Shown here: positions 3,597 through 20,722 of the stretch, in pieces
Layout of the letters: each line of letters opens with the position of its first letter
Position numbering within the stretch: position 1 is the stretch's first letter
Origin: Mangrovimonas aestuarii
GTDB lineage: Bacteria > Bacteroidota > Bacteroidia > Flavobacteriales > Flavobacteriaceae
Assembly (NCBI RefSeq): GCF_028767185.1
Contig: NZ_JARACK010000005.1
Location: forward strand, 1 to 64,000
Direction of reading: 5' to 3'
DNA: 64,000 nt
The notes under the pieces: generated by a model
Told to the model about the DNA's origin: nothing
Seen by the model: the letters and a program-made list of their open reading frames with translations, nothing else
Databases searched by the model: none
Translations under genes and position numbers: made by a program

Positions 3597-3598
3597 TG

Positions 3599-4216
3599 TT
3601 AAAAGTCATGTTTTTTACTGTTACTAACCCATTTCAGATCCTTGAACTCCCCTTTGGTTTGAAAAGGAGCTCTATTCGTGTAATATCCACCAGAGAGCCG
3701 TTTTTCATCACCATCCTTAATGAACTTAACTACCTCAGTACCATAATGAGGAGGAAACCCTTGCTCATGGCTTCCTTCATTTAAATAGTTATAAATCATA
3801 TTAAAATGCTGATTATCATGGGTAGCTTCAACATACATGCCTTTATTTACAGAAGGAGATGATAAGCTACCATCAGCCTTTTTGGTAAAAGAGGTGATAT
3901 TTATTCTACTTCCTGTTTGAGCTACAATCTTTATATGATCCAATTCACCAGTTTGCAATAATCCATTTTCATCCAAATATTGATAGACGATCTTACCTTC
4001 GTATCGACCGGAAAAATCATCAAACCAAAACATCCAAGAAAAAGGCTTAATATTCCATAGATACTTAGTAATCACAACTATTACAAGAGTTAGAACACTA
4101 AAAACAGAAATTGATAAACCAAACGATTCTTTGGTTAAATAAATTAATACAAATGCAATTATAACCATACCTATTAACACATTAGGGTGGTAATATTTTA
4201 AGTAATCTTTCTCCAT
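3599..4216 (-). CDS. Cap15-like CBASS membrane effector (2TM + beta-barrel)
   Basis: This 205-aa protein has two closely spaced hydrophobic helices (about residues 12-28 and 34-52) followed by a beta-rich soluble domain starting at SGRYEGKI (about 69). This is the architecture of Cap15, whose small beta-barrel senses the cyclic nucleotide and whose two transmembrane helices disrupt the inner membrane to kill the infected cell. Its position just upstream of the CD-NTase (2-bp gap) is also typical of Cap15. Assignment rests on architecture and context. The closest alternative is another two-TM effector of the S-2TM type, which is less likely because of the C-terminal barrel. Confidence 0.75.
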   Translation of the reverse strand: MEKDYLKYYHPNVLIGMVIIAFVLIYLTKESFGLSISVFSVLTLVIVVITKYLWNIKPFSWMFWFDDFSGRYEGKIVYQYLDENGLLQTGELDHIKIVAQTGSRINITSFTKKADGSLSSPSVNKGMYVEATHDNQHFNMIYNYLNEGSHEQGFPPHYGTEVVKFIKDGDEKRLSGGYYTNRAPFQTKGEFKDLKWVSNSKKHDF

Positions 4217-4847: not shown

Positions 4848-4880
4848 AAACTATGCAGCGTAATTGCATAGTTTATTTTT
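4848..4880 (+). terminator. Hairpin with 10-bp perfect stem and T tract
   Basis: AAACTATGCA (4848-4857) and TGCATAGTTT (4865-4874) pair perfectly around a 7-nt loop and are followed by ATTTTT, which gives a rho-independent terminator shape on the plus strand. No plus-strand gene is supported upstream, so it may mark the end of a lost gene or a small transcript. The whole stretch 4451-5498 otherwise holds only a doubtful small ORF and the structured element at 5223-5325. Confidence 0.5.
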
Positions 4881-5498: not shown

Positions 5499-8400
5499 CT
5501 AATTAGCCTGGTTAAAATCTTCTACAATTTTAAAAATAGCATCTGCCTGTTGAGTTGTGAACACACCGTCTATGCCCATGCTGTGATAATTTTTAAAAGG
5601 TGCTTCGTATAGTTTGCTTGGCTCTATCTTACCATTAGTGGTCAAGAATTTTTTAATGGTATCTAAAAACTGAATTTGAATCGCATTTAAGTGGTAGTCG
5701 TTAATGAATTGCGCAAAAGCAGCATCCACTTTTTCGGGGCTTAATCCCATTAAGGATATTACAAATTGGACAATATTAAATTGAGTGCCCAACTCCTTTT
5801 CAATAGCTTGTTTATCTATGCCATTATCGAAAAGCATGCTTTCCAGTGCCAACAGCTCCTCTTTGGTAATGGCCTCACCCTTACGAATACGATTTATGGT
5901 TATGTGGTTTTCATTTTCTCTAATGATCTTTTCCAAACGATGAAGATTGTTTTGGAATGGAGATCCATTATTATTCATCGATCCATTCACCATGTCTCCA
6001 TGCTTAATATCATCCTCAATAATATAATCCGCAAAATCGGTTGTTACGTATCTTTGGTCTACTGGATCGATATACTTTACCAACTCCCTGACTCCCTTTC
6101 TTAATTTTTCCAAGTGGGCGATTCCTTCAATCTTCCAAAAGTTTTCCTGTAAAGGCATTTTTATTAGCTCCTCTTTGGATTTAACTTCGGGCACTGAGGT
6201 TTTCTTCAATAATTTTTGAGAAGTAGTAGCCACCTTAGAAATAGGAACCATAAAACTATTTAAATAGTTTTCGGTGTTTGGGGTTTCAAGTCGTTTGGCA
6301 ATTAAATTATAAAGGAGTTTATCATAATATCGTGCCATATCTGTGTCTCCTTTTTGTGGTTTGACCAAAGGTGCCAACTTATCTTCAATTCGTTTGACAT
6401 CTCGTTTAGACAAATGGCTCCAAAGCTCTCTATTATCGTTACCAAACTCGTGAACGATCTGTAGATTCATTTTCACATCAAATCGTTCCAAATCCAAGGT
6501 TGCAATATCATTATGTAAACCATCCAATAATTCTGTTCTAAACAATTGCAATTGGTCGTTATCCTTAAATTGGTCACTTCTCAAGTATTCGGCAAGGCGA
6601 AGGCGTAAACCGAATATTATTTCAGTCAACCCTTTTTGAGAACTTGTTTCAATTCCCTCAGGATTTTCTTCAAAAAACTCGAAATTACCACATAGATCGA
6701 AAATCAAGAAATGTGTTTTATCCTCATCGGGGCCAAACAAATCTGGTCGTAAACGGGATCCTCTACCTATCATTTGCCAAAATTTAGTATAGGACTTCAC
6801 TTGTTTATAGAATACCAGATTCACACAACTTGGAGCGTCTATACCCGTATCCATCATATCTACAGAAATCGCTATTTGTGGTAAGCGGTCTTTTTCCTCA
6901 TCGCAAAAACGATTGATGAACTCTTTAGCTTTAGGTTCACTATGTGTGATAACTTTAACATAGTCGTTTCCAAACTGCTCTTTATCCAGTTCCATAAAGG
7001 TATCCTTCAAGAACTGGGCATGTTTTCTGTTTTTAGCGAAAATAATGGTTTTACCCAGTTCATCACCTCCTCGTTTTTTGATACCATGCTTTAAAATGAA
7101 ACGTAAGGTTTTAATAGCTGTAGGCTTGTTGAAAAGCCAGGTATTCATTTCTGAAGAGGAAATCCATTCATTACCTGTAGCTTCCTCCCCATCTAATATC
7201 TCTTCTTCAAACTGTTCCTTTTCTTCATCTGAAAGTTCACTATACTTAATACCTTCCCTCAAGAATTTTGTTGGAACCTCAATAGATTTATAGGGTACTA
7301 GATGCTTATTAGACACAGCTTCATCAAAGGTATAGGCATCTGTAGGTGATTTATCGGCTAAGCCAAACACATGGTATGTATTTTTATCAATACTATTTTT
7401 AGGGGTAGCTGTCAACCCTAGAAAGATCGCATCGAAATACTCAAAAATGGCCTGATACTTTTTGTAAATGGAGCGGTGTGCTTCATCAACAATAACAAGA
7501 TCAAAATGACCAACACCATAAAAACGAGCTTCACCATCACGGCTACCGTCTATTAACCCCATCATGGTTTTATAAGTAGAAAAGGCAATACGGGCATCGG
7601 GATTATCCTTTTCTTCCAATAAATTTACGCAAGCGTGTTCAGGCAAATGCTTTACGAAGTTTCGCTTTGCCTGATCTACCAAGCTTATTCGATCTGCCAA
7701 AAACAATATCCGTTTTGCCCAATTGCATTCCAACATTAATTTTGAAAATGCTATAGATGTTCTTGTTTTCCCTGTACCTGTAGCCAAAACCAACAAGGCC
7801 CCGCGATGGGTACCTATTAATTTCCCATTGCTTTTATCTGTTCCCGCTATATGCTCTGCAATACTTTTTATGGAACGCATTTGATAAATACGTCCAGCAA
7901 TAAAGTCATCTATGGGAGCAGTTCTAATATCCTGTCGATGTGAGCGACGAAACATTAAAGTCTGTAGTTCGGCTTTTGTATAAAAGCCATGTACTGGTCT
8001 GGATTGTTTATAAAACTGGTCGTCCCAAAGATAGATTTCGTAACCATTGCTATAATACATTACTGGGCGACGACCAAACATTTTCTCCAAACAGTCTGCA
8101 TACAACTGTGCTTGGTTTTCTCCTTTGGTAACACTTTCCATCGTTTTTTTAGCTTCAACCAAAGCCAAAGGCAGACCATCGTCATCCCATAGTACATAAT
8201 CTACAGAACCAAGACCTGAAGGGTTTGTGGAAATTGGCATATACTTAACTCCAAATTCCTTATCATTAACTCCCTGTAAATCCCAACCAGCCTCACGTAA
8301 GTTTATATCAATAATATACTTACGGGTTTCGTATTCATTTCGAGGATGTACCACCTCATCCTGAGCATTGGCGAGCTGCTTGTTTGTTTCAAAGGCTTGC

Positions 8401-8984
8401 TGTTTTAATTGCAATTGGCGCTTTAACAATTCATTTTCGGCTGCCAGTGCTTGCTTCTCCTCCTCTTGTTTTTTAATTTCTTGCTGAAAAGAAGACAACT
8501 TATCATCAAGGGATTTTTCAAGCGCTTGTATTTCTTTTTTAGAAAGTGTAACGCCACCCTTTTCTGGAATAACTTCGAAGTTAAACAGACCAGGATCATC
8601 AACTGGACTTTGAGCGTATGATTTAGCAAACCATTTTGCGAAATAGAATAAATATTCTATGGTATTATGGGAATCTACATCATTAACCGATTTATTATGC
8701 GCTGCTAAATTCCCCGTTTTTTTAATAAGGTGTAGCTCATTGTACAGTTTATGATTAAACTGCTCCTTAAAGCTCGCTTGAACCATTAAGCTATTTAAAG
8801 TCTTATCATTAGGTAATTCGAGCTCATCATCATTGACATACATCCAATTTACAGCAACTTCGAGTGCCATACGGGCATAAAAGAGCGATGCTCGAGGGTC
8901 TGTAATCACTAATTTTTCTGCATTTACTGCCCTATCGAAAAAGGTTGCAAACTCGCTTTGAAGAAACTGGAAATTTGTATTCAT
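5499..8984 (-). CDS. hsdR: Type I restriction enzyme R subunit (HsdR) with DUF4145 domain
   Basis: This 1161-aa restriction and translocation subunit is longer than usual because of added N-terminal modules. Residues 1-120 are a DUF4145-like helical domain (ARMALEVAVNWMY ... LHLIKKTGNLAAH), and about 150-205 form a charged coiled coil. The HsdR_N nuclease follows at about 215-325, with VDYVLW (D262) and the catalytic VEAKK (E277, K279). The SF2 motor has Walker A ATGTGKT at 401-407, DEAH at 500-503, LTATPK at 524-529 and a QMIGRGSR motif VI, followed by a helical C-terminal domain that should dock on HsdM. It is the last gene of the cluster, 12 bp after the GIY-YIG gene. EcoEI-type HsdR is the closest family. 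Confidence 0.93.
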   Translation of the reverse strand: MNTNFQFLQSEFATFFDRAVNAEKLVITDPRASLFYARMALEVAVNWMYVNDDELELPNDKTLNSLMVQASFKEQFNHKLYNELHLIKKTGNLAAHNKSVNDVDSHNTIEYLFYFAKWFAKSYAQSPVDDPGLFNFEVIPEKGGVTLSKKEIQALEKSLDDKLSSFQQEIKKQEEEKQALAAENELLKRQLQLKQQAFETNKQLANAQDEVVHPRNEYETRKYIIDINLREAGWDLQGVNDKEFGVKYMPISTNPSGLGSVDYVLWDDDGLPLALVEAKKTMESVTKGENQAQLYADCLEKMFGRRPVMYYSNGYEIYLWDDQFYKQSRPVHGFYTKAELQTLMFRRSHRQDIRTAPIDDFIAGRIYQMRSIKSIAEHIAGTDKSNGKLIGTHRGALLVLATGTGKTRTSIAFSKLMLECNWAKRILFLADRISLVDQAKRNFVKHLPEHACVNLLEEKDNPDARIAFSTYKTMMGLIDGSRDGEARFYGVGHFDLVIVDEAHRSIYKKYQAIFEYFDAIFLGLTATPKNSIDKNTYHVFGLADKSPTDAYTFDEAVSNKHLVPYKSIEVPTKFLREGIKYSELSDEEKEQFEEEILDGEEATGNEWISSSEMNTWLFNKPTAIKTLRFILKHGIKKRGGDELGKTIIFAKNRKHAQFLKDTFMELDKEQFGNDYVKVITHSEPKAKEFINRFCDEEKDRLPQIAISVDMMDTGIDAPSCVNLVFYKQVKSYTKFWQMIGRGSRLRPDLFGPDEDKTHFLIFDLCGNFEFFEENPEGIETSSQKGLTEIIFGLRLRLAEYLRSDQFKDNDQLQLFRTELLDGLHNDIATLDLERFDVKMNLQIVHEFGNDNRELWSHLSKRDVKRIEDKLAPLVKPQKGDTDMARYYDKLLYNLIAKRLETPNTENYLNSFMVPISKVATTSQKLLKKTSVPEVKSKEELIKMPLQENFWKIEGIAHLEKLRKGVRELVKYIDPVDQRYVTTDFADYIIEDDIKHGDMVNGSMNNNGSPFQNNLHRLEKIIRENENHITINRIRKGEAITKEELLALESMLFDNGIDKQAIEKELGTQFNIVQFVISLMGLSPEKVDAAFAQFINDYHLNAIQIQFLDTIKKFLTTNGKIEPSKLYEAPFKNYHSMGIDGVFTTQQADAIFKIVEDFNQAN

Positions 8985-8996
8985 AGCTCTAATATA

Positions 8997-9554
8997 CTAA
9001 TGTGTTCTAAAACTATTCCATTTAGCCCTAAAGATTCCTGCCAAAGCAACTTCTAAAAAATACAGGTTATAATCTTCTTCTACAGCATGTAATACAACCT
9101 TATAGTTTCTGAGTTGTTCTTTAGAGGTGTTCAAAATTTCATTTGTAACATTGGCTCTTGTTATGTTTGGATCTTCATGATTAGAAAGTAAATAAGCCAA
9201 GGAACATTCGTTATGTAATTTGCCCCAGCCGTGCTGACGCAGTCTTCTGAATATTGTACGGCTTATTCCAACATATACAGGAACAACCTTATCTCCTTGT
9301 TGTTCACCAAAAACATAAATCCCCTTTAATTCGTTCTCTGTACTAGATTTTCCCGACTTATTATTGGGAAAATAACCTAAACTTTCGAAAAGCTTTGTTT
9401 GTCTCCAAACTTTATCATTGACCACCTTATATAAATCGTTAAGTATTGGGGTAGAATCATGAGATAGTTTATCTTTTAACTCTATTGCCAATTCATGTGC
9501 TTCCAATAGCAACTGTTCTAAACTTTTTGGATAAGGTTCTTTTCTATAATTCAT
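8997..9554 (-). CDS. GIY-YIG nuclease family protein in hsd operon
   Basis: In this 185-aa protein residues 78-170 form a GIY-YIG catalytic domain: GIY at 78-80, the YVG variant at 94-96, the catalytic Arg around R104 (FRRLRQH) and the metal-binding Glu at about E168 (FLEVAL). All key residues appear present, so an active endonuclease is plausible. The N-terminal ~75 residues are helical and unassigned. Its start overlaps the end of the PD-(D/E)XK-like gene by 4 bp and hsdR follows after 12 bp, so it is part of the same operon. Standard type I systems do not contain such a gene. It may add a second cleavage activity. Confidence 0.8.
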   Translation of the reverse strand: MNYRKEPYPKSLEQLLLEAHELAIELKDKLSHDSTPILNDLYKVVNDKVWRQTKLFESLGYFPNNKSGKSSTENELKGIYVFGEQQGDKVVPVYVGISRTIFRRLRQHGWGKLHNECSLAYLLSNHEDPNITRANVTNEILNTSKEQLRNYKVVLHAVEEDYNLYFLEVALAGIFRAKWNSFRTH

Positions 9555-10894
9555 TTTGGTAGAAACAAATTTTTATAGCTCATTTTCATAGCTAATATAA
9601 AATCGGCCAATGGCTTTATATTATCCATTGTTGTATCTATTTGTTGCAAGTAACTTAATGGCACTGTAGTTTCTATAAAATAGCCTGCAGACATGGTTAA
9701 ATAATTTCTATTGGTGTTTTCGAAATTACCCTCCCAATTCATCTTTGTTTTCCAGTCGTAACCATCGATAGTATATTCCTCCAAGAAGTCTTTTAGTTTG
9801 CCCCACTCATCCCGGTTGTATTTCCCTGTATGATGCCAATGCACATATGATGAAATTAACTCCTTACCTTCTTTAATTTCTTCATCACTAAGGAGTATAT
9901 TACAGATGTATTTATTGAAATGGCAAAATTTTAATTCATAGCCAGCATCTACGTCGAATGAGTGTGAATTAACTTGAATACTGTGGGGAGGCGACCACCC
10001 CTTGTTCTTTTTTAAAAGATTTAAAAGTACAGTGCCCTGTCCTTTTGTATTACCTGGCCAAATTCCAAAAATAAGATTTAACTTGCCGTCACCACCTTTA
10101 GATAAATAGAGCAGGATTTCGCGAGCCCAACCAAAATCCAATTGCAAGCCAATTCGATCGTTATATTCGAGAATAGGATGTTCCTCTGAATCTATGAACT
10201 TTAAAGCAGCTACAAGACGTTGATATATTTTATGTTTTTCTGTAATACTGTTAGATAAGCTAGCCAAAGGAGCGATAGGAATCCAATTTGGATTATGGCT
10301 TTGCACCAAGCCAATAAAATCTTCCAGTAGCACTGAAGGTGTATTCATTAAGCTATGGAATCCATTGATACGATTCACTAACAACATTAACTTTTCCCAG
10401 TTATAATCAACAGGGAACACATTTTCCTTACTTACAGCAACAGTCCCTAAAAGTGCTGCTACCTGTTGGTGCAATTGTTTTGTACAATCTGTATTATCTC
10501 TTTTTACCTCTATACAAAATGCAATATCATTGATAGTGATAAAAATATCGGTGATATGTTTTTTATTGATGTTTGGTGAGTGATTAAAGAAACCTGCAAG
10601 GCCCATAGGTAGTCCACTCATTGCTATTGCAAAAACCTTAGAAAACTCACCTTGCACATCTGTAGTTTCTACCTGAATATCGATTTGCCAATTATCCTTA
10701 TCGGTTATATCGGCAAAAAGATTATCGAAAATCTTCTCTTGACTACTTTCTTTAAAAACACTTTTCAAAAACTCATACAGTAATAAGGGATCATTTTTTA
10801 AGCAGATTACAAAAGCCCTGCTTAAATTATCTTCTATATTTTCTGCTGACAAGTTTTGGCTAAAAAACCTAAATGTATTTAAATGTCTATTCAT
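9551..10894 (-). CDS. PD-(D/E)XK nuclease-like protein in hsd operon
   Basis: This 447-aa protein is not a standard type I subunit. Its N-terminal third carries the pattern of a PD-(D/E)XK nuclease: an early acidic helix IEDNLSRAF (about 20-28), the strand ITDIFITIND with D116, then FCIEVKRDN with E129 and K131. The remainder (about 150-447) is of unknown fold. The start codon overlaps the hsdS stop by one base, and it overlaps the GIY-YIG gene at its own end, so the pair is translated together between hsdS and hsdR. I infer a DNA-cleaving or DNA-end-binding accessory protein. The nuclease call needs structural confirmation. Confidence 0.6.
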   Translation of the reverse strand: MNRHLNTFRFFSQNLSAENIEDNLSRAFVICLKNDPLLLYEFLKSVFKESSQEKIFDNLFADITDKDNWQIDIQVETTDVQGEFSKVFAIAMSGLPMGLAGFFNHSPNINKKHITDIFITINDIAFCIEVKRDNTDCTKQLHQQVAALLGTVAVSKENVFPVDYNWEKLMLLVNRINGFHSLMNTPSVLLEDFIGLVQSHNPNWIPIAPLASLSNSITEKHKIYQRLVAALKFIDSEEHPILEYNDRIGLQLDFGWAREILLYLSKGGDGKLNLIFGIWPGNTKGQGTVLLNLLKKNKGWSPPHSIQVNSHSFDVDAGYELKFCHFNKYICNILLSDEEIKEGKELISSYVHWHHTGKYNRDEWGKLKDFLEEYTIDGYDWKTKMNWEGNFENTNRNYLTMSAGYFIETTVPLSYLQQIDTTMDNIKPLADFILAMKMSYKNLFLPK

Positions 10895-12087
10895 TATACC
10901 AACTCCCCTTTAAACGCTTTTTGCAGTAAGCAGTTAAACAAATCTTCTGCTTCCTTAAGCTCTTGTTTGGCCAATTCCTTTTGTTGCTCTATCAAGGCTA
11001 TTTTATCCGCAAATTGGTTTTGAAGATCAATAGGCGGAATCGGTATTTCAAAATTTTGAAGTTGTTCTTTTGTTATTGCTTCTCTAGTAGCCCCATTCCT
11101 TGTTCCAATACCCAATAATTTAACTTTAACATTTGGAGAAATAACAAGATGTAATAGAAAAACCGGGTTCAATTCTTCTCTTTTTACTCTTAAAATTGAA
11201 ACGTGTTGATTTACCCTAGCTGGTAAGATTTCCTTTGGAACTATTGCACATCTAGCCACAGAAGCCCCTGTTATATTTAATAACACATCATTTTCTTCAA
11301 TAATCACATTCTTTAACTTAGCCGCCTGAGCATCATCTATAAAAGCTAAATCTTTATTCTTAAAACAATTATCATGAATATTCAAACTTCTTATCAATGA
11401 AATCCCTTCCATTTTATATGCATCTTTACCTCCTTTAGGCGTTGACCCACTTCCTATTTTTGAAGTTAAAACTTTCATTTTTTGCTCTTGCCATCCCTTG
11501 GGATTGATAACCGGATCCCCAAACATATCCAAGAAAATGGACTGTGCGAGTTTATCATACTCTTCGAGCAGCTGTTTGGTTTTATCGCGCAGTGCAGCGG
11601 CATCGTCGAGGATTTGAGCGATACGTTTTTGGGTGTCGAGGTCTGGGAGTGGGATTTCTAACTTATTTATATAACGCGGTAACTGTAAATTTATAATGCC
11701 TGTTGTCTTATTTTGAAACATTCCTGTAACTCCAAAACGGTGACTGCCGTAAAGTAAATAATGTAAATATCTTGGGAATACTTTATCTTTTTTAGGTCTA
11801 AGAATAGAAGTGAAATTATTACATAAATAAACACCTTCTTCGTTGAAAAAAACGACACGACCTACAGGCTGTTTTGGACTACCTCCCGATTTTTCAATAA
11901 TAATATCACCTTTCAACAACTTCTTTTGTTCAACTTTTTTACTCGAAATATTTCTTTTAACTACTTCGGACAAGTCAAGCACGCCTAAATTGGTAAAATT
12001 GGTGGTTCTTAAAACCTTCACATCTTCTCCTTCATCACCCCATTCTCCAGTAATAGGTTTTTCAATAATATCTTTTAAAAAAGTCAT
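10894..12087 (-). CDS. hsdS: Type I restriction enzyme specificity subunit HsdS
   Basis: The 397-aa length fits a full two-domain specificity subunit. The first target-recognition domain spans about 1-145, the first conserved helix about 150-190 (PLPDLDTQKRIAQILDDA), the second recognition domain about 200-350, and the closing helix about 355-397 (PIPPIDLQNQFADKIALIEQQ). The repeated 'P-P-x-x-x-Q' turns before each helix are diagnostic. The two halves specify the two parts of a bipartite recognition site, which cannot be read from sequence. It lies 3 bp after hsdM and touches the next gene by one base. Confidence 0.93.
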   Translation of the reverse strand: MTFLKDIIEKPITGEWGDEGEDVKVLRTTNFTNLGVLDLSEVVKRNISSKKVEQKKLLKGDIIIEKSGGSPKQPVGRVVFFNEEGVYLCNNFTSILRPKKDKVFPRYLHYLLYGSHRFGVTGMFQNKTTGIINLQLPRYINKLEIPLPDLDTQKRIAQILDDAAALRDKTKQLLEEYDKLAQSIFLDMFGDPVINPKGWQEQKMKVLTSKIGSGSTPKGGKDAYKMEGISLIRSLNIHDNCFKNKDLAFIDDAQAAKLKNVIIEENDVLLNITGASVARCAIVPKEILPARVNQHVSILRVKREELNPVFLLHLVISPNVKVKLLGIGTRNGATREAITKEQLQNFEIPIPPIDLQNQFADKIALIEQQKELAKQELKEAEDLFNCLLQKAFKGELV

Positions 12088-12090
12088 TAA

Positions 12091-13728
12091 CTATAAAAGT
12101 TTAGATAATTTCTCATTTATTTCCATTCGTTCTTTATTCAGAAAATTAATCTTTCCTAATATTTCTGAAGGTGCGTCGTACTTCACTTCTTCATAAACGA
12201 TTTCCTTGTAACGGTTAATTGAGAGGTCCCAGTCGTTTTCCTTAATTTCCTTAAATGGAACCAGGAAACTTTGAGAAGTACGGTCTGCAAAATTGTGGGT
12301 GCAGGTACCATCCAAAAACTTATCGAATCCTAAGTTTTGAGGCACATTGTTTACGTGAAGTAGGTTTCCTTCGTTATCGTGCATCATCCCAAAATACTCA
12401 CTTTTTAAATAACGGTAGTGGTCTAACACTTGCGGTAAATTAAAATTGTTGTGCACCTTGGAAAGTTCTGCCAACTTTTCTTTTGTTAAATCTTCTGCAA
12501 AAGCAAAATCATTAAACAACTCCTCATCTACCAATAAGTTTCGTTTATCATCGAGACTTTTGCCATCGGCTTGCATATCGTAAAACCAAACATTATCTGT
12601 ACCTCCACTTCCTGTTTTGGTGAATATCATTATGGCGGTACTTACCCCTGTATAAGGTTTAAACACCCCACTAGGCATAGAAATAATGGCTTCCAGTTTA
12701 TTGTTCTCCACAATTTCCTGACGAATACTTTTATGGGCTTTACCGCTACCAAATAACACTCCATCTGGCACTATAACAGCTGCTCTTCCACCAATTTTTA
12801 ACTGGCGTAACATAAGTGCCAAAAACAGCAGTTCGGTTTTGGTGGTGTTTGTTACGTTTACAAGACTAGGAGCAATACTAGCTTTATCAATCTTGCCTGT
12901 AAACGGGGGATTTGCCAAAATTAAAGTATGAGCATTACTTATTTCATTATCCTTGCTCACCGCATTGACATCTACAATATTAGGCTCTTCCACTCCATGT
13001 AGGTAAAGGTTCATAGAGGCAATACGTAACATCGTGGCATCGAACTCCGTACCATTAAACATGGTTTTATTGATATGATCGCTGTTTTTATCCAATTCAG
13101 TAACATCGTAATGCTTGTCGATATATTCCTTGGCCGCCACCAAAAAGCCAGCAGTACCCACCGAAGGATCACAGATTACATCCTCTAGGGTTGGCTGCAT
13201 TAACTCCACCATAAGCTTAATAATGTGGCGTGGGGTTCTGAACTGTCCTGCGGTACCACCACCTTCCAATTTAGACAAAAGATATTCGTATATATCTCCT
13301 TTGGTATCTTGATTGGTCATATCGATACGCTCTAACTTTTCCATTACCTGGTCCAATACTGCGGGTTTGGAAATACCAAAGGTAGCACCACTCATGTAGG
13401 TACTGAACAAGCTTTTTTCACTCCCCAATGAACGAATAAAAGGAAATATACCATCTACAGTATTAGAAAATATCGCATGACGTGGATTAACGTCCATTTC
13501 TTTCAAGTTCTTCCAACGAAAGTCTTGTTGGTCGGGACCGAAAATTGGATTGAACTCTTTATTCAATCGTTTTGCCTTACGCTCATTACGCGTTTCGGTC
13601 TCATCTAAATCTTTTATAAAAATGAGGTAGGTTAACTGCTCAACGATGGTGATGGTGTTTGAAATACCTCCCGTCCAGAAAGTATTCCATATTTGATCTA
13701 TTTGTGATTTTAATTCTCCTGTAATCAT
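12091..13728 (-). CDS. hsdM: Type I restriction enzyme methyltransferase subunit HsdM
   Basis: This 545-aa protein is an N6-adenine methyltransferase that modifies the host recognition sites. Visible parts are the N-terminal helical HsdM_N domain (about 10-140), the SAM-binding motif I DPSVGTAGFL at 187-196 and the catalytic NPPF at 273-276 (LANPPFTGK), all intact. It lies 15 bp downstream of the DUF2130 gene and 3 bp before hsdS. This intact NPPF contrasts with the degenerate site in the second methylase-like protein upstream (16252-18723), so HsdM is the likely functional methylase of the cluster. Confidence 0.95.
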   Translation of the reverse strand: MITGELKSQIDQIWNTFWTGGISNTITIVEQLTYLIFIKDLDETETRNERKAKRLNKEFNPIFGPDQQDFRWKNLKEMDVNPRHAIFSNTVDGIFPFIRSLGSEKSLFSTYMSGATFGISKPAVLDQVMEKLERIDMTNQDTKGDIYEYLLSKLEGGGTAGQFRTPRHIIKLMVELMQPTLEDVICDPSVGTAGFLVAAKEYIDKHYDVTELDKNSDHINKTMFNGTEFDATMLRIASMNLYLHGVEEPNIVDVNAVSKDNEISNAHTLILANPPFTGKIDKASIAPSLVNVTNTTKTELLFLALMLRQLKIGGRAAVIVPDGVLFGSGKAHKSIRQEIVENNKLEAIISMPSGVFKPYTGVSTAIMIFTKTGSGGTDNVWFYDMQADGKSLDDKRNLLVDEELFNDFAFAEDLTKEKLAELSKVHNNFNLPQVLDHYRYLKSEYFGMMHDNEGNLLHVNNVPQNLGFDKFLDGTCTHNFADRTSQSFLVPFKEIKENDWDLSINRYKEIVYEEVKYDAPSEILGKINFLNKERMEINEKLSKLL

Positions 13729-13743: not shown

Positions 13744-15024
13744 TTAATTGTTGTTTAAGCCGTTAAATTTTTCTTTCATAGTTGGATTGTTGTAGGTAAG
13801 CTTTTTGATCGTCAGATCTTCCGCTTTGTTGTTTGCCAATCGCAAATTGTTTACCGATGAAAGCAGTGCATCCTTGGTTTTTTGTAAGTGATTCATTGTT
13901 TTATCGATCTCATCAATTGCCGTTTTAAATTGACGACTTGCCAAATCGTAGTTTCTAGCAAAACCATGTTTAAACTCGTTAATTTTTTCTTCAAAATTAG
14001 TAATGTCGATGTTCTGGTTTCTCATTACATTCAATTCTGATTTATACTGTAATGATTTCATTCCAGCATTTTTTAGCAATGTAATAATTGGAATAAAAAA
14101 CTGCGGGCGGATAACATACATTTTATCATATTTATAAGACACATCTACAATACCGGTATTGTAAAACTCGTTATCTGATTCGAGTAAAGACACCAGTACA
14201 GCATATTCACATCCTTTATCCCTACGGTCTTTGTCAAGTTTTGCAAAGAAATCTTCGTTTTTCTTCTTGGTCGCCGTATGGTCATTTTCGTTTTTCATCT
14301 CGAACATGATGGATACAATTTCATTGCCTTCATGATCGGTTTCTCTGTAGATATAATCTCCTTTGGTACCACCGGAAGCATCGTTGTCTTTTTCGAAATA
14401 AGCCCCTTGAAAAGCTGTAGCCCTTAGTTTGTTAAACTCTGTTTCGCAATGCTGCTCTAGAGTTTCCCCCACCATTTTAGTAGATAGCTTTTGCTTGTAA
14501 TCCTGAAGACGTTCTATTTCCTGGTCACGGAATTTGATTAATTCATCTTTAGCACTTAATTGACTGGCAAACTTCTCCTTCAAAGAGCTTTCCAACAATT
14601 GTCTTTCACTATCCTTGTTTTTTAAATCGTTAACGAGTTGGTCTCTTTCTTTTTCAATCTGGTTAACAGCCGTGGACACTTCAAGTGTTTTTACCGTTTC
14701 AGCTTTTTCCAATTTTGACTGTAAATCGCGAATAAGCTCATCTTTCTTAGACACCTCATCAACCAGCTCTTCCTTACTTTTTAACTTTAGATTACTGATC
14801 TCCTGATTTTTTTTAGCTATTAGATCCTGGTAAAAACTTTTAATTTTAGATTCGGTGAGTTCTACAGCCGATTGCTTTTCTTTTTCAGCAACCTCTAATC
14901 GGCTGTTTATTTCTGTTTGAAACTGCTGATCCCTTACTTGCTTAACGATATCATTGTAAACAGAGTCGTCAACTTTAAAAACTTCTTTACAGTTTGGGCA
15001 TTTTACTTTTGTATTCTCACTCAT
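13744..15024 (-). CDS. DUF2130 family protein
   Basis: This 426-aa protein starts with one CxxC pair (C9, C12; VKCPNCKEVF) and continues with a long charged coiled coil from about 30 to 190. The DUF2130 domain follows (ETLEQHCETEFNKLR ... GTKGDYIYRE). Within it D223 and the later FEMKNE (E242, K244) have the spacing of a PD-(D/E)XK nuclease core. DUF2130 proteins often sit beside restriction systems, and their function is not established. It lies 15 bp upstream of hsdM and 68 bp downstream of the receiver gene, so it is probably co-transcribed with both. A DNA-end or structure-specific role is inference. Confidence 0.8.
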   Translation of the reverse strand: MSENTKVKCPNCKEVFKVDDSVYNDIVKQVRDQQFQTEINSRLEVAEKEKQSAVELTESKIKSFYQDLIAKKNQEISNLKLKSKEELVDEVSKKDELIRDLQSKLEKAETVKTLEVSTAVNQIEKERDQLVNDLKNKDSERQLLESSLKEKFASQLSAKDELIKFRDQEIERLQDYKQKLSTKMVGETLEQHCETEFNKLRATAFQGAYFEKDNDASGGTKGDYIYRETDHEGNEIVSIMFEMKNENDHTATKKKNEDFFAKLDKDRRDKGCEYAVLVSLLESDNEFYNTGIVDVSYKYDKMYVIRPQFFIPIITLLKNAGMKSLQYKSELNVMRNQNIDITNFEEKINEFKHGFARNYDLASRQFKTAIDEIDKTMNHLQKTKDALLSSVNNLRLANNKAEDLTIKKLTYNNPTMKEKFNGLNNN

Positions 15025-15092
15025 AACTTGAATCTTTAAAAATTAATAACATTACAAATGTAGGGTTGAAGTGTGCAGGGTGATTGCATAGA

Positions 15093-16259
15093 TTAATTGG
15101 CTCGTTTTATCAAATCAATAAAAGTTTTCGTTCCACAAGGGCTAGGTTTTGTTGTAACTTCAATATTGTCCCCCTCGCGGAATGAAAATTCATCCATTAT
15201 TTTTGGCAATATTGTTAATTCAATAACGCCATCCGAAGACCGAAACGTTCCAAAGTTATTACCGGCGACTCTAATTAATTTGCCAGCAATCCATTCACCC
15301 GAAACTTCTGATTCAACTTGTTTTTTCTCCCATTTTGATAGATTTCTTTCTTTAACCAAATTACTATCAATAAATGTTTTGAAATAATCTAGTACATCAA
15401 ATAAAAGAAGCACCGTACTTTGGTATAGAAACGTATTTGAGACTGAAGCCATGTATGAATCAACCCCTAATTTACTTCCATTATCGTGGGATCCATCCTG
15501 TGTAACCATCAAAATTTTATAAATATTAAAAGCAATTACAGAGTGAATTATCTCTTGGTTATGAACGTATCCACTATGACGATTTGATAAAAAGGCTCCT
15601 GATCCATTAATCCAACCTTTATCCTCGATAATTTCATCTGGTATACATCCAATTTCATTAAGCTTTCTGAAGAGTGCTTCAATAATTTTTCTTATTCCAG
15701 TTAATGAATCTTGAGCTATTTTAATCTGATTTGGGTTTTCAATATCCAAAACCAAATGATGCAACCTATCGAAATGCTTTTTGCCTAAATAAGCTTCAGT
15801 ACATATTTCAAATTGATTGGAATACTTATGCTTTAATTTTGTTAATTCTCGATTCTTACAAGCCTCAACAAGCATATTAAAAAGTTTATCCTCATCTTCA
15901 TCCTTTCCTTTTTCAAATACATTCGGGAAGGCATTATTAAACTCTTCTGATGCATAGGTTTTGGCTTGCCCTGTCAAAACAAAGTAGGCTAAAGTTCTAT
16001 CCAAATCCCTTATCCTGTCTTTTGCCTGATGTACCCATTTAGTGTCTTCTGACCCAGGAACATCCGTTTCATTTTCAAAGAATTTAGCATCTAATAATAC
16101 TGCATCATATTTTGAAAGATTAACTTCTAGTTCTTTACAACCACCATTCATTGATTTGAATGGCCAAAATTGGATATTGTAGTCTATTGCCGTTTTATGA
16201 ACCGCTTCCAAAGACTCATGCTGATCATCTATCCAAAGTACATTGTATTTTTTACTCAT
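15093..16259 (-). CDS. CheY-like receiver-domain protein, partner of methylase-kinase
   Basis: In this 388-aa protein residues 1-130 are a response-regulator receiver domain with a complete active site: acidic pair D11-D12 (VLWIDDQ), phospho-acceptor D57 (VLLDAKF), T96 (VLTGQ) and K117 (VFEKG). A helical middle region (about 135-320) has no family I recognise; it includes YVHNQEIIHS and QDGSHDNGSK. The last ~65 residues (IAGKLIRVAGNNFGTF ... IEVTTKPS) look like a small beta-barrel of OB or cold-shock type. There is no classical DNA-binding output domain. It overlaps the upstream kinase gene by 8 bp, so the two are a cognate pair. Output could be through nucleic-acid or protein binding. Confidence 0.75.
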   Translation of the reverse strand: MSKKYNVLWIDDQHESLEAVHKTAIDYNIQFWPFKSMNGGCKELEVNLSKYDAVLLDAKFFENETDVPGSEDTKWVHQAKDRIRDLDRTLAYFVLTGQAKTYASEEFNNAFPNVFEKGKDEDEDKLFNMLVEACKNRELTKLKHKYSNQFEICTEAYLGKKHFDRLHHLVLDIENPNQIKIAQDSLTGIRKIIEALFRKLNEIGCIPDEIIEDKGWINGSGAFLSNRHSGYVHNQEIIHSVIAFNIYKILMVTQDGSHDNGSKLGVDSYMASVSNTFLYQSTVLLLFDVLDYFKTFIDSNLVKERNLSKWEKKQVESEVSGEWIAGKLIRVAGNNFGTFRSSDGVIELTILPKIMDEFSFREGDNIEVTTKPSPCGTKTFIDLIKRAN

Positions 16260-18723
16260 TTAATATTGGTATTACAGGAAAATTAAACCTAAAAATCACT
16301 GGAAAAACACTGTTTTCATCTAATATTAGTTCCCAGTCTGGATTATTAAAATATTTTGCTATTCTATTTATATCATATCCCCCTAACCCTGAGCCATTAT
16401 CTTCATTAGAAGTTGAAAATTTAGATATAAACTTATCTCTGTTAAAATTATTTGGAAATGGTAAACCATTATTTCGAATTTCCAGTTGCATGACCTCTTC
16501 TGTAACCTTTAATTCTACGACTAAAAGATTCAACCCACTTTTTTCTCTAAACGCATATTTGTTAGCATTAGAAAGGATGTTATCTAAGAGTATCTGGAAT
16601 AAAGTAAGGTTAGCCCGAATGGCTTTATTTTTCATCTCTTCAGCTAATGCTCTTTCATAATGAAAAGTGTAATTCTCTCTTACCTTTTTTAGCTTATTTA
16701 AAAGTTGGTTTAAATCTTTTATAGAAATAGCACTGAGCTCATAGTCACTCATAACTAATCCATTTTCACCTTTTTCTAATATTGTAGAGATGTGATTAAC
16801 ATCATTTTTAATTTGAACTAAATCGTCAATCAGATTTGTATTATATCGCTCATTATATAAATCTTTAACTTCACTAAAAGCTGAAGAATCATTATTTTCA
16901 AAAAAACGAATTAAACTTTTCGCATTGGACAAAATGTTTTGTCTAGGCGTACCCAACGAATGCTTTAGCGAAGCGAACTCATCAAAACTGGACACTTGTT
17001 CTCCATGAGCTAATCTATTCCTTTCTTCTTGAAGTATTTTGAATTTTTCAGATAATTCGAGAATTCCTTTAACTTTTGCTCTTTGTTCCTGTATTGAAGG
17101 TAACTTAATAACAATCTTAATAAGATCATTGTTACGCAGCATAGGCTGTACAGATCCAACCCTATATTTGTTTAATTGGTCTTCCACATAATCTGCGGAA
17201 AACTCATTTATCAAGAATATTGGATCAACCTCATCTTCATCAAGTTTTAAGGCTACTATAGCTGAAGAAACAACAATTGGCTCACCGGAATACTCAAAAT
17301 ATGTTGGTTTTAGGGTATTCCATTTAGTAGCTAAAAGCAAACATGATTCACTTATTATTCTAAAACTATTTCTAGATACTAATGAAGACTCTAGTTCATA
17401 AGTATTCAAAACACAGTCGAAAACATCTTTTTTAAGATCTCTGATTTGGACCTGCTTCATCCTTGTACTAAGAGGCGCCTTTTCGCCTTTGATAATTCTA
17501 GAAAAAGCATGTAATTTAAAACCATCAATACTTTTCAAAAAATACCTTCCAACCGATAAGTCGAGATCATTTGCATAAATCTCCTCATCACTCACATATC
17601 TTAGAAACTCATTTTCAACATCAGTATTAATAAGGTCTTTAAGTTCCTTTTCATTTAATACTTTTTTACGACTCCCTTCTTTTCTAAAAAAAGTAGAACC
17701 ATCAACTAATTTAATATACCCTGGTCTTCTGGAAGTAACCTTAAAAACCACTATACAAAGTGGTATAGCCGTATTAGAAAGCAATCCTGCGGGCAAGTTG
17801 ATTATAGTGTCAATTAAGCAGTTTTCTATTAAATTATGTCTAAGTCTTTTTTGACGACCACCACCGAACAGAAAAGATAAAGAAAATACACCAATAAATT
17901 GACCGTCTGCTTTTATGGAATGAATTCCTTTATCAATTAAGAAACTTTCTACATCACCATAACTATCTCCAGTTAAATTTGAATGAAACTCCTTTGGAAT
18001 AGGTAATTTTAATGGAGGCGCAGACACGATAAGATCGTACTTCTGAAAATCGTACCAATATTCAATAGAATCACCAATCACATATTCAGAAGAATGCTCT
18101 CTGTTATGAGCCTTTAACCTTAATTGACCAATAGCCCAAACGATAGAATTTATTTCTTGGCCAAAATATGTTTGCCCTTCATTAAGATTAACACCAAATG
18201 ATGCTAACCCTGCAAATGGGTTATAAACAGATGCATTACTATCTAATTGAGCAAGATCAATAATTAACCTAGTTACTTCTTTAGGTAATACTGATTCACC
18301 TGAACTTTTACCCTTAATTTCTATAACCCTTTGTAGTATATTTTCAAATACCTCGGCAAAATGTGTTCTAAGTGCATGAGTATCTATATTAGTAATACAT
18401 AATGACAAATCAACAATTACATAGGATGGCAACTTTGTAAAAAGAGGTGAATAAATATCAAAAATTCTCCTATCCAGCTCATTCAAATTTTGTGATTGAA
18501 TGTTATTGGAATATGAATCTATTTTATCAACATATCTTAATTCTGTCCAAGATATATCCCAATTGTCCCTAAGTGCTGTAATAAGAAATAGCAAAATATC
18601 TACTCTATCCCTTAAACGTGTTTTATGTAACACGTCAGTACATTTCCAAACTTGCTCGGTAAGTTGATTAACTACTAAATCTGACTTGATTTTATCTTCC
18701 CTCATAAATATGATTAAATTCAA
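16252..18723 (-). CDS. Fusion: HsdM-like methylase + HsdS-like TRD + histidine kinase
   Basis: This 823-aa protein has an unusual architecture. Residues about 120-340 are an N6-DNA-methylase-like domain with the SAM motif YNPFAGLASFG (167-177), but the catalytic motif reads SAPPLK (234-239) instead of NPPF, so methylation is probably lost. Residues about 400-570 resemble an HsdS target-recognition domain ending in KLPSIQEQRAKV and a helix. Residues 584-597 form a histidine-kinase H-box with H588 (LKHSLGTPRQNI). Residues about 705-815 are a HATPase domain with an N-box (LLDNILSNANKYAF), a G1-like NNG at 751-753 and a G2 GSGLGG at 777-782. The gene lies 42 bp below the WYL regulator and overlaps the receiver gene by 8 bp. 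I infer a DNA-reading sensor kinase. Confidence 0.8.
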   Translation of the reverse strand: MNLIIFMREDKIKSDLVVNQLTEQVWKCTDVLHKTRLRDRVDILLFLITALRDNWDISWTELRYVDKIDSYSNNIQSQNLNELDRRIFDIYSPLFTKLPSYVIVDLSLCITNIDTHALRTHFAEVFENILQRVIEIKGKSSGESVLPKEVTRLIIDLAQLDSNASVYNPFAGLASFGVNLNEGQTYFGQEINSIVWAIGQLRLKAHNREHSSEYVIGDSIEYWYDFQKYDLIVSAPPLKLPIPKEFHSNLTGDSYGDVESFLIDKGIHSIKADGQFIGVFSLSFLFGGGRQKRLRHNLIENCLIDTIINLPAGLLSNTAIPLCIVVFKVTSRRPGYIKLVDGSTFFRKEGSRKKVLNEKELKDLINTDVENEFLRYVSDEEIYANDLDLSVGRYFLKSIDGFKLHAFSRIIKGEKAPLSTRMKQVQIRDLKKDVFDCVLNTYELESSLVSRNSFRIISESCLLLATKWNTLKPTYFEYSGEPIVVSSAIVALKLDEDEVDPIFLINEFSADYVEDQLNKYRVGSVQPMLRNNDLIKIVIKLPSIQEQRAKVKGILELSEKFKILQEERNRLAHGEQVSSFDEFASLKHSLGTPRQNILSNAKSLIRFFENNDSSAFSEVKDLYNERYNTNLIDDLVQIKNDVNHISTILEKGENGLVMSDYELSAISIKDLNQLLNKLKKVRENYTFHYERALAEEMKNKAIRANLTLFQILLDNILSNANKYAFREKSGLNLLVVELKVTEEVMQLEIRNNGLPFPNNFNRDKFISKFSTSNEDNGSGLGGYDINRIAKYFNNPDWELILDENSVFPVIFRFNFPVIPILNE

Positions 18724-18765
18724 CTCTGCAAATAAACAATAAAAATATGCAGAGTTACCGCACAG

Positions 18766-19764
18766 TTATTTATTGTAATATTGATGCATTGCGTTAGCAT
18801 GTTCTCTCATCTGATAAATTAAATGCTCTGGCTCGAGCACTTCTAAATCCTGACCAAAAGATAATAGTTGCTGTACTAGCTCCTTATTGATAATTGTTTC
18901 GAACCACACTTGATCTTGTTTATCATCTTCAAAAAACTCCTCATAATCTGGTTGAAAAGGTTTTGTTTTGAAATAATACTCTCTCCCATTATAAAACTTT
19001 AGTACTACTTTTTCAACTTTTGCATCTCTGGGTCTCACCACCCCTACCATAGTTCTGAAGAATGCATCCCAAGCAGTATCTGATTCGATGTAATCGACAT
19101 CGTCTACTAAATCAAAATCAATAAGCCTTTCATCTAACGGAATACTCCATTCTTTAACGTCTTTAGTTGCATTATATCCAAACACAAACCACCTTCTGTT
19201 ATATTGCTTAAGTATATGCGGATGGAATTGATACACTACAGGCGATTCATCTTTAAACCCTTTGAAAGTAACCTGAAGAACCTGTTTTTTCTTTATTGCC
19301 AGGTATAACGGCTTTAAGTGAACTATACCCCTATACTCCTCATTGTGGTCATAAAATAAAATTCTAGAGTCGTCGTCTTGCTCTTCTTCATCTTGAAATT
19401 TAATTAAGGCTTCGGCCAGTCTGTTGTATTTAGGATGGTTCTCAAATCGCTCCAATAATTGTTGTGCAGCATCAATTAAATATTGTTCGTATTCAAGCAA
19501 TGGTCGTTGAGCAATAGAGAAATTGGGGTCTGAATACTTTAAAACCCTTACCTTTTCTGGTAATGGTGCTCCAAAACCGTTGACTTTATCCCTAAAAACC
19601 TTAAGGTCGTCACGTAATGTTCTAACGGATATGCCCTCTCCACGATATTGCCTATCAATCCCTTCATTTACATATCTTAATAACTCTTCAAATCTAAACT
19701 CCCTATTACGAAAACAATAATCCAGAATATTGTATCTTAAATGAGCATGGGTGCTATTTGCCAT
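18766..19764 (-). CDS. WYL-domain transcriptional regulator
   Basis: This 332-aa protein has an N-terminal winged helix (about 1-70, with SVRTLRDDLKVF as the likely recognition region), a WYL domain at about 145-235 (LKPLYLAIKKKQVLQVTF ... RRWFVFGYN) and a WCX-type C-terminal domain (about 245-325). WYL regulators such as BrxR and CapW repress defence operons and respond to nucleic acid or nucleotide signals. It is the first gene of the nine-gene hsd/kinase run and is followed after 42 bp by the methylase-kinase gene, so it probably autoregulates the whole operon. The 150-bp upstream gap (19765-19914) should hold its operator, but no clear palindrome is visible by eye. Confidence 0.85.
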   Translation of the reverse strand: MANSTHAHLRYNILDYCFRNREFRFEELLRYVNEGIDRQYRGEGISVRTLRDDLKVFRDKVNGFGAPLPEKVRVLKYSDPNFSIAQRPLLEYEQYLIDAAQQLLERFENHPKYNRLAEALIKFQDEEEQDDDSRILFYDHNEEYRGIVHLKPLYLAIKKKQVLQVTFKGFKDESPVVYQFHPHILKQYNRRWFVFGYNATKDVKEWSIPLDERLIDFDLVDDVDYIESDTAWDAFFRTMVGVVRPRDAKVEKVVLKFYNGREYYFKTKPFQPDYEEFFEDDKQDQVWFETIINKELVQQLLSFGQDLEVLEPEHLIYQMREHANAMHQYYNK

Positions 19765-19914: not shown

Positions 19915-20424
19915 TTAAAATCGTTTTTCGAGTTCGTCAATGGCCATTTTTTGCTCTCTTACATTACCAAGTCTGATAGCATCTACCAATGCCAACAGCT
20001 CATGGAGTTTTTCATCCTCCTGAACAGCTTTAGGCACATTGGGATGAAGGGGCTCTATTGAAAAACCTCTTTCATTCCCTTCTGCAAAGGGCCAAACAAT
20101 GGCTTTGTTACTTTGAATATGTTGATTCAGAGGTGGTGCACTATGAGCAGTGGCCACGCCCCTATCCATAGCACTTGGTTTTTGTGGATAGACGTATTTA
20201 AGCCCTGAAGAAATAAATTCCAACAAAGCTGTTTTCATTATTCTCTTTTTGTCACTCCCAATTAAGCCAGCCATGACACTTCTATTTAGGGATTCACTCA
20301 CTTCGCTGTTGGAAATAAAGAGTTCATTAGCTATATCTTTCATTAGCCAATTTTCATCTCCTTTGGATACTATTTTAAGTAAAATAACGATGTCATGGGG
20401 ACGCATACCATTGTGCTTTTTCAT
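19915..20424 (-). CDS. Winged-helix (MarR-like) DNA-binding protein
   Basis: This 169-aa protein has a winged-helix domain in its first ~75 residues (HDIVILLKIVSKGDENW ... ISNSEVSESLNRSVMAGL), with the recognition helix near residues 38-52. The rest is a proline-containing linker and a C-terminal helix (DEKLHELLALVDAIR). Similar proteins are often the DNA-binding half of two-gene modules with a nucleotidyltransferase or other toxin partner. No partner is next to it here, so it may be an orphan. A perfect 19-bp palindrome lies 15 bp upstream of its start (20439-20457), pointing to autoregulation. It is the last gene of the island before the tRNAs. Confidence 0.6.
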   Translation of the reverse strand: MKKHNGMRPHDIVILLKIVSKGDENWLMKDIANELFISNSEVSESLNRSVMAGLIGSDKKRIMKTALLEFISSGLKYVYPQKPSAMDRGVATAHSAPPLNQHIQSNKAIVWPFAEGNERGFSIEPLHPNVPKAVQEDEKLHELLALVDAIRLGNVREQKMAIDELEKRF

Positions 20425-20700: not shown

Positions 20701-20722
20701 TTTGTGCACATTTTGTGCACAT
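20701..20722. repeat. 11-bp direct repeat near tRNA-Arg 3' end
   Basis: TTTGTGCACAT occurs twice in tandem (20701-20711 and 20712-20722), each with the palindrome GTGCAC. It lies 50 bp beyond the 3' end of tRNA-Arg, where an integrase arm-type site or a regulator site of an integrated element could be. No integrase gene is in the window, so function is inferred from position. Confidence 0.5.

Follow-up and report, generated by a model that had tools for sequence, protein, structure and literature searches.

A probable sensor kinase with a methyltransferase-like input and its response regulator: an apparently undescribed, proposed defence signalling module in Mangrovimonas aestuarii

Introduction

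Restriction-modification (RM) is usually viewed as a matter of cutting or protecting DNA, without signalling. A locus of Mangrovimonas aestuarii raises the question of what a restriction-type DNA-recognition part is doing when it is joined in one polypeptide to a histidine kinase. The stretch considered here, called the window below, comprises 64,000 nucleotides (contig NZ_JARACK010000005.1 of assembly GCF_028767185.1, positions 1 to 64,000 of the forward strand), and the gene in question lies on its reverse strand at 16252-18723. It encodes a type I methyltransferase-like part (M part), a target recognition domain (TRD) and a histidine kinase half, and a response regulator gene follows it. 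We consider the protein to be a sensor kinase that belongs to a two-component system dedicated to defence, with a relaxed type I M-TRD half-enzyme as its input, and would put the probability of this reading at about 0.62. What we observe are the parts, their conservation, the pairing of kinase and receiver by covariation, the exchange of modules around them and the defence context. In Bacteroidota, a DNA-reading piece of a restriction enzyme would seem to have been turned into a signalling device feeding an apparent phosphorelay.

Results

Architecture of the kinase and its conservation

Counted from its TTG the kinase has 823 residues, and this numbering is used throughout. The ATG at 18705 (M7) is the likelier start, as methionine is found there in 69 of the 77 aligned rows having a residue at this position; it would give 817 residues and renumber H588, discussed below, to H582. 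We compared 81 members, namely the window, a Myroides plasmid (L012) and 79 loci (L020-L098) from an alignment scan of named genomes, seven of which are from the same genomes as L013-L019. By record titles these 79 loci are almost all from Bacteroidota; Leptospiraceae, Fibrobacter and Balneolaceae appear in one title each. The alignment scan succeeded where a single-sequence scan of genome contigs returned no relatives. In L048 (10001-12351) the kinase gene lies in two frames of 658 and 110 amino acids and is there either broken or misassembled.

A first-pass annotation, made from the letters alone, had read the domain order as HsdM-like, HsdS-like, histidine box and HATPase, and this order is borne out by Pfam matches, by an AlphaFold2 model (pLDDT 86.8) and by the conserved kinase residues. 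The type I M-subunit-like fold is matched by N6_Mtase over residues 121-395 (17539-18363, reverse strand as for all parts of the gene; E 1.4e-32), and residues 13-398 of the model align with PacII M1 at Z 36.4 (rmsd 2.5, 370 residues aligned). An HsdS-type TRD follows at residues 404-541 (17101-17514), where Methylase_S matches 475-571 with an E-value of 9.3e-5, just above its cut-off; it is the only such stretch, and the chain with its single TRD does not have the two TRDs of an HsdS. When the M part and the TRD are aligned with 7eew over residues 22-559 the rmsd is 22.9, and thus they do not superpose as a single body. The model continues with a long helix (544-610) that carries H588 (16960-16962), the candidate phospho-accepting histidine, and with a second helix, the two forming a DHp-like pair (544-655; 16759-17094), before it ends in an alpha/beta domain (664-819; 16267-16734) that we assign as the HATPase (CA) domain. 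Because the structure matches listed cover only residues 15-558, this last assignment rests on profile matches and motifs and not on a fold match.

Among 51 relatives scanned singly with Pfam at E<=0.01, N6_Mtase was matched in all 51, HATPase_c in 48 and Methylase_S in 30. H588 is a histidine in 80 of the 81 members, and in 51/51 rows of a separate alignment; the sole exception, L096, has none of the kinase motifs. The HATPase boxes are conserved to a similar degree (N719 in 78/79, G753 in 78/79, G779 in 79/79 and G781 in 78/79). Several NCBIfam histidine-kinase models also match the C-terminal part, the best being PrsK over residues 626-788 (E 3.3e-6), all of them far under their cut-offs.

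The response regulator and its pairing with the kinase

The gene directly downstream, absent from the first-pass annotation, overlaps the kinase gene by 8 bases on the same strand (15093-16259) and encodes a response regulator of 388 amino acids, made of a receiver, a helical output domain and a cold-shock-like domain (model pLDDT 93.0). Such a gene is directly downstream of the kinase gene in 78 of the 81 loci, and in two of the three others (L054 and L060) the contig breaks off within the kinase gene or where that gene ends. The receiver (residues 4-136; 15852-16250) matches the PorX receiver at Z 15.5 (rmsd 1.8, 114 aligned), which heads the list of structure matches in a tie with other receivers, and it is complete by its residues: D11 in 76/78 regulators, D12 in 77/78, and D57, T/S96 and K117 in 78/78 each. 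The receiver is the one part of the regulator covered by the fold matches listed.

Covariation strongly indicates, at the level of sequence, that kinase and receiver form a cognate pair. Over 73 loci (the 81 less the near-duplicates L027 and L079 and six truncated, broken or regulator-less loci; a second run covered 75), the pairwise identities of the DHp, CA and receiver domains correlate with r of 0.94-0.95 (Spearman 0.74-0.77). The partial correlation between CA and receiver is 0.90, and in 500 permutations of the labels values as high as those of kinase and receiver never arose. For the M part and the TRD, which share a chain, the correlation is 0.84, and the receiver and the output domain, which also share one polypeptide, give r of 0.54 and a partial correlation of 0.07.

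Individual loci point the same way. L024 and L040 are 0.91-0.97 identical in the M part, TRD, DHp, CA and receiver, and 0.20 in the output domain; their DNA identity is 0.82-1.00 up to about position 12857 of L024, falls from the receiver end onward, and is 0.95 again from 13638, near HsdM. L024 and L055 are alike in the M part (0.72) and the output domain (0.80) and share only 0.17-0.29 in the TRD, DHp, CA and receiver; kinase and receiver were thus exchanged as one, as would be expected if they are cognate. Input and output domains are exchanged around the kinase-receiver core, the output domain independently of the receiver next to it. That the protein signals by phosphotransfer, as the first-pass annotation had proposed, gains support from the adjacent and covarying receiver, phosphotransfer itself being what one would infer from such a pair.

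The output domain, called MID here (residues 150-302; 15354-15812), is nearly all helical in the model and has diverged to identities as low as 17-24% between members, with R190 (15690-15692) and H258 (15486-15488) kept in 78/78 and E194 in 74/78. We compared it with DUF4145, a domain of the HEPN type (PMC3710099). With the full set, hhalign gave P 0.013 with the R..E and G..H positions aligned, seven other profiles giving P of at least 0.2; with subsets, P was 0.034-0.15, with an unrelated control down to 0.027, and with a single sequence 0.1. MID set against the N-terminal parts of 19 HsdR proteins gave P 0.025 (seven controls at 0.2 or above), and DUF4145 is matched by 2 of 76 MID members, at best with E 0.014. 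The method is weak here, as DUF4145 against HepT, two true HEPN families, reaches only P 0.14. The HEPN RNase motif RX4-6H fails in MID, in which no conserved arginine stands 4-6 residues before H258 and R190 is 68 away. A HEPN identity of MID is suggestive only.

Behind MID lies a cold-shock/S1-like OB domain (residues 324-386; 15102-15290), which matches cold-shock chains in PDB profiles (best E 0.0045); among 64 regulators searched at E<=0.1, S1CSD-TOTE-2 matches 17 and OB_RNB 16. One might then suppose that the regulator is a plain expression switch, its cold-shock-like output binding RNA or single-stranded DNA and adjusting transcripts of the defence operon without any effector. The presence of the OB domain in most regulators is consistent with this, as are the promoter-like sites that precede the kinase gene and, at some loci, the RM genes as well (see below), and a part of MID that weakly resembles a phage family of single-stranded-DNA-binding proteins (PF17878; matched at E<=1 by 14 of 76 members, with 3.2e-5 as the best value, below cut-off). 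On the other hand, 18 of 78 regulators are shorter than 330 amino acids, which we judge from length to be too short for the OB domain, whereas the helical domain with R190 and H258 is always present, and we regard this version of the output as unlikely. PF17878 is, next to DUF4145, a second lead as to the nature of MID, but its matches stay below the family's threshold: 4 of 10 members examined match, at 18.4-24.2 bits under a cut-off of 27, over some 54-64 residues.

Relaxed catalytic motifs in the M part

In the window kinase motif I reads NPFAGLAS (residues 168-175; 18199-18222) and motif IV is replaced by APPL (235-238; 18010-18021), so that the active type I methyltransferase motifs, DPxxG and NPP[FY], are both missing. 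The loss of NPPF, to which the first-pass annotation had drawn attention, is real in this protein but is not a trait of the family: the first letter of motif IV is N in 45 of the 81 members and T, S, H, C, A or another residue in 36, and the homologues that bear NPPF keep the histidine box. Serine at this position is acceptable in some cytosine methylases, and the number of truly dead members is for that reason uncertain. As to motif I (NPFAG and similar), the N was built into the scan pattern for the 79 scanned loci, and we draw our conclusion from nine rows collected without that pattern, in all of which it is N (one row has H for F). In neighbouring HsdM proteins, by comparison, both the D of motif I and the N of motif IV are kept in 58/58. 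E190 is invariant (81/81), and hence a cofactor or ligand pocket may persist in the M part. Catalysis in this part is relaxed rather than uniformly lost, and less constrained than in the neighbouring HsdM; from its sequence, it seems to keep landmarks of the cofactor fold such as E190, yet to have lost the strict need for methyl-transfer chemistry.

These same residues could be taken for those of a regulated DNA methyltransferase, of which the NPPF-bearing members would methylate DNA under the control of the kinase half. The N of motif IV in 45 members and the invariant E190 fit such an enzyme. Against it are the 36 members, the window's among them, without that N, the N for D in motif I, and the HsdM of the same loci that keep both; H588 and the receiver are also far better conserved than the catalytic motif. 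We consider it the least probable of the alternatives discussed here.

Relation to the adjoining RM genes

The usual gene order is a WYL-domain regulator, the kinase, the response regulator and then type I RM genes; of the 81 stretches, many of which end early, 61 match an HsdM profile, 57 an HsdS profile and 50 an HsdR profile. This M-TRD architecture, adjoining type I RM genes, could suggest a methylation-state sensor for the neighbouring RM system, one that reads the methylation of host sites and tunes restriction. The first-pass annotation had offered methylation state as one possible input. In the 47 loci with both genes, however, the identity of the TRD correlates with that of the partner HsdS at r of -0.05, as compared with 0.78 for the TRD and its own M part, and the sensors of L051 and L030 are 72% alike in the M part while the adjoining HsdM are only 31% alike, an exchange of partner that would break any matching of targets. 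Methylation state as set by the RM neighbour is thus unsupported as an input. The closest sensor pairs do tend to have similar HsdM: in the 14 pairs with M parts at least 0.70 identical, HsdM averages 0.71 and HsdS 0.38, which counts for such a sensor and against an input independent of the neighbour. Recent common descent would give the same similarity, and the numbers point to some joint inheritance of the sensor with the RM genes, which tells against our reading to that extent. On balance the TRD data speak against a protein that reads the sites methylated by its partner, and we hold such a sensor to be improbable. What is sensed would, on balance, rather be shared by many types of RM system, be it a DNA target that stays the same, a cofactor, or the anti-restriction proteins of phages.

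The last of these possibilities would make the module a guard, in which the M-TRD part imitates the RM methylase as a decoy, anti-restriction proteins of phages that mimic DNA (Ocr or ArdA, for example) attach to it and switch on the kinase, and the output of the regulator then halts the infected cell, as PrrC does for EcoprrI. The methylase fold is retained, and 7eew, which comes first in the Foldseek list, is a crystal structure of a methylase together with Ocr, although this shows only that the fold can be bound in that way. The independence of the TRD from the partner's specificity would accord with a target common to many RM types, the output domains are exchanged, and PrrC provides a precedent, described in the RM review (PMC12707154). 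Yet HsdM is found in only 61 of the 81 stretches, other defence genes stand beside some cassettes, and the effector chemistry called for at the output is hypothetical. We regard a guard as possible but rather doubtful.

Gene neighbourhood

In the window, the unit begins with the gene for a WYL-domain regulator of 332 amino acids (18766-19764, reverse strand; Pfam WCX E 1.2e-10, WYL E 4.7e-5). Of the 81 loci, 64 have a WYL gene upstream of the kinase gene at a distance of no more than 3 kb, co-directional in 63, and 70 have one anywhere in the stretch. Beyond the regulator gene, and likewise on the reverse strand, follow a DUF2130 protein (13744-15024; Pfam E 5.3e-91), HsdM with intact motifs DPSVGTAG and NPPF (12091-13728; Pfam), HsdS with two Methylase_S stretches (10894-12087; Pfam), a 447-residue protein lacking a Pfam, NCBIfam or good PADLOC match (9551-10894), a weak GIY-YIG-like protein (8997-9554; Pfam E 0.0067, under cut-off), and HsdR with an N-terminal DUF4145 domain by profile matches (5499-8984).

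The defence context extends further. A CBASS-like set adjoins the RM operon at 1943-4216 (PADLOC: cyclase E 1.1e-113, E2 E 7.3e-66, 2TM effector E 8.3e-106), a 169-residue protein upstream of the WYL gene (19915-20424) matches the candidate defence family PDC-M21A at E 9.5e-50, and a 292-residue protein at 956-1834 on the opposite strand matches DrmC weakly (E 2e-6). PADLOC was also run on ten large unlabelled neighbour genes in other loci. It returned the Druantia III proteins DruH and DruE for L031, GmrSD/HEC-06 in L038, HerA in L026, a helicase (C3a193, DpdF-like) in L071, a C5 methylase in L072 and an AAA protein in L068; three of the ten (L041, L098 and L062) had no match. Pairs of genes for about 1000 and 1950 residues adjoin the cassette in L031, L043, L078, L047 and L044; that of L031 is the DruH/DruE pair by profile, and the others are judged by size and position only. 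Proximity of defence genes is no proof of a link to the cassette.

A repeated site beside the WYL gene

An operator-like site, TGCG-N7-TGCA, stands just after the WYL gene and before the kinase gene (18748-18762, reverse strand), and a second, TGCA-N7-TGCA, between the regulator gene and the RM genes (15074-15088). Of the 81 loci, 69 have a site ahead of the kinase gene that matches TGCA-N7-TGCA in at least 7 of 8 letters (4.3% of shuffles) and 49 have an exact one (0.25%), as against 3 of 78 before the regulator gene. Before other open reading frames of at least 250 amino acids the count is 82 of 611 (shuffles 5.4%), an excess that includes the sites before RM genes. A spacer of 7 stands out with 70 loci where about 5 are expected, and the next, a spacer of 17 with 55 loci, probably reflects a TTTGCA that follows the site. 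In the window TTTG is found at 18729-18732 on the reverse strand, with a similar spacing from the site in many loci by eye, and we take it to resemble the -7 element of Bacteroidota promoters. Relative to the WYL gene, the site comes after it in 60 of 64 loci and before it in 9. The whole window holds four exact sites where 1.2 are expected; one is at 20705-20719 in the upstream region of the WYL gene. A TGCA-N7-TGCA site also lies at 4854-4868, between the CBASS-like set and HsdR.

As the half-sites and the spacer resemble a type I target, it occurred to us that the kinase might read this site in its own promoter. We set the idea aside, tentatively, upon examination of WYL loci (30 of 42 matches, with flanks of about 1.5 kb). 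Five of the 30 gave a kinase-profile match, counting L148 where the next gene is unlike the kinase, and of the 25 without such a match in the flanks four (L155, L156, L162 and L163) keep the site at the WYL stop codon. Given these kinase-free loci, a WYL operator is the simplest reading, and the WYL regulator, as the putative binder of the site, probably sets expression through it. On the other side, in 17 loci the 3 kb upstream hold no WYL gene, and 9 of these keep the site, though several of them have a WYL gene farther off. In L156 the WYL gene and the site are followed by a gene that starts, by eye, like the window's DUF2130 protein, with no kinase-regulator pair, and this locus looks like a natural version of the unit without the module. 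A 9-bp inverted repeat at 18722-18756 was discarded as a shared feature: of 59 loci, 9 have arms of at least 8 (shuffles 7%) and 4 have arms of at least 9 (shuffles 1.4%), and both arms and loops differ from one locus to another.

Distribution and a CRISPR-linked relative

Within the same family, 8 of 397 genomes match the kinase at E<=1e-30, the window's own included. In 345 genomes of the phylum, searched by a profile without the motif pattern, 121 match at E<=1e-40; most of these matches end within the methylase part, as HsdM would, and in 12 genomes they extend, by the ranges listed, through the kinase half. All 12 (the twelfth, G573, at 74 bits) carry the regulator beside the kinase. Of 1783 matching plasmid records three cover at least 80% of the query, all from Myroides odoratimimus with identical coordinates; the M. 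odoratimimus plasmid L012 (43 kb, typed mobilizable) carries the complete unit from WYL to HsdR. Among viral contigs, which were scanned with one pattern, no relative turned up.

One of the 345 genomes, G467, has the regulator without an M-TRD kinase. The order there (L144, 605-12185) is Cas10/Csm1, RAMP proteins including Csm4, a 763-residue protein, the regulator, a Csx1-type CARF-HEPN protein and Cas6, which we read as type III-A from Csm1 and Csm4. The regulator consists of receiver and MID, with R, E and H kept. The 763-residue protein has a weak HATPase match (E 0.0026), and by the E-values of two-sequence searches it matches the profile of the kinase half and not that of the M-TRD part. 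No plasmid matched the CRISPR-linked regulator at E<=1e-3. This locus invites the broader idea of a general chassis for defence signalling: one kinase-receiver core, plugged with inputs that recognise nucleic acid and derive from immune enzymes (here the clamp of a type I methylase, in G467 some other input beside type III CRISPR) and with exchangeable helical effectors that keep an invariant arginine and histidine, so that invading nucleic acid or its anti-restriction proteins would lead through a phosphorelay to a cell-level response. We offer this as a tentative generalisation, somewhat more likely to be wrong than right.

Discussion

How might such a module work? Two kinase chains would pair through the DHp helix, which is continuous with the HsdS-type helix, and their inputs might then form an M-TRD/TRD-M clamp like that of a type I methylase. 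It is plausible from the architecture that this clamp reads DNA. Once DNA of a certain state, or a DNA mimic made by a phage, engages the clamp, the helix register would shift, upon which H588 would be autophosphorylated and the phosphate passed to D57 of the regulator, whose output domain would in turn act as an effector or on neighbouring defence genes. The WYL regulator would set the expression of the unit via the TGCA-N7-TGCA sites. Autophosphorylation, the dimer clamp, the trigger, the output chemistry and the WYL protein as binder of the site are the parts of this scheme that we infer, the architecture being confirmed. Since the guard and the methylation-state sensor differ from the sensor kinase proposed here only in the trigger, and the expression switch only in the output, their odds overlap with its own.

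Several observations weigh against a two-component system of this kind. Pfam HATPase_c on the window kinase (709-790, E 5.9e-4) reaches 20.7 bits against a cut-off of 26.4, the kinase half has no fold match among the structure matches listed, and HisKA is matched neither in the window kinase nor in the 51 relatives scanned singly. The N, G1 and G2 boxes of the HATPase are present, with G1 reading N-x-G instead of D-x-G. An acid usually follows the phospho-accepting histidine of histidine kinases, and here it is a serine, in a part of the model that is poorly resolved (pLDDT 57 and 61 in the blocks spanning 571-590). MID gave no Pfam match above cut-off and no significant solved relative. The identity correlations between kinase and receiver ignore the tree. 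The CRISPR-linked core is a single locus in 1 of 345 genomes, and 79 genomes of G467's family held no second copy at E<=1e-10.

If the sensor kinase is what we propose, two-component signalling would join the means of defence in about 12 of the 345 genomes sampled from the phylum (Bacteroidota by the named relatives). The natural swaps seen between L024 and L040 and between L024 and L055, together with the exchangeable modules, provide material for testing signalling on DNA state or on anti-restriction attack.

The first-pass annotation knew of no described system with this domain order, and the open-access literature searched agrees, as we found in it no description of a methylase-TRD-kinase fusion. 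In the text of the RM review that was searched (PMC12707154), a term search for histidine kinase, two-component and response regulator gave nothing. As far as that literature goes, the module is a real and apparently undescribed one for defence signalling.

It nevertheless has likenesses to several known systems. With type I RM methylases (HsdM2-HsdS; PacII, EcoR124I, 7eew) it shares the M fold, at Z up to 36.4, and the HsdS-type TRD with its trailing helix; it departs from them in having one TRD fused to M, relaxed motifs I and IV, and a C-terminal kinase. The anti-phage two-component system Detocs reportedly has a kinase and a receiver with an exchangeable output, along with a TPR-like input and a phosphorylase-like output; here the input is M-TRD, and neither of those two is among the families matched. 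PrrC, like our pair, is an accessory module in type I RM loci, but is itself a nuclease without kinase or receiver. Its response to RM inhibition beside EcoprrI is described in PMC12707154. PorXY, a Bacteroidota two-component system, provides the receivers that head our structure matches; the output of PorX is of the PglZ type (PMC12839542), whereas here it is a helical domain without assigned family and the kinase input is a methylase.

Regulation of defence genes by comparable components has been reported: RptR as a repressor of type I RM (PMC12255303) and a BarA/UvrY-like pair that regulates CRISPR (PMC8523701). The repeat to which BrxR binds lies ahead of the gene for BrxR itself, according to the RM review (PMC12707154), and the BrxR/CapW type of WYL regulator likewise heads a defence unit with repeat sites nearby; in our loci the site comes after the WYL gene, seldom before it, and a kinase-regulator pair is next. 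In a BREX survey, Schlafen-type RNases are fused to a minimal histidine kinase (PMC12839542), a kinase piece on a defence protein as here, with another partner domain and no methylase input mentioned in that passage. Cam2 is a receiver domain in type III CRISPR loci with a membrane-helix part and, per its authors, no associated histidine kinase (PMC11229360). The CRISPR-linked relative L144 likewise has its receiver in a type III locus, yet beside a kinase-like protein of 763 residues.

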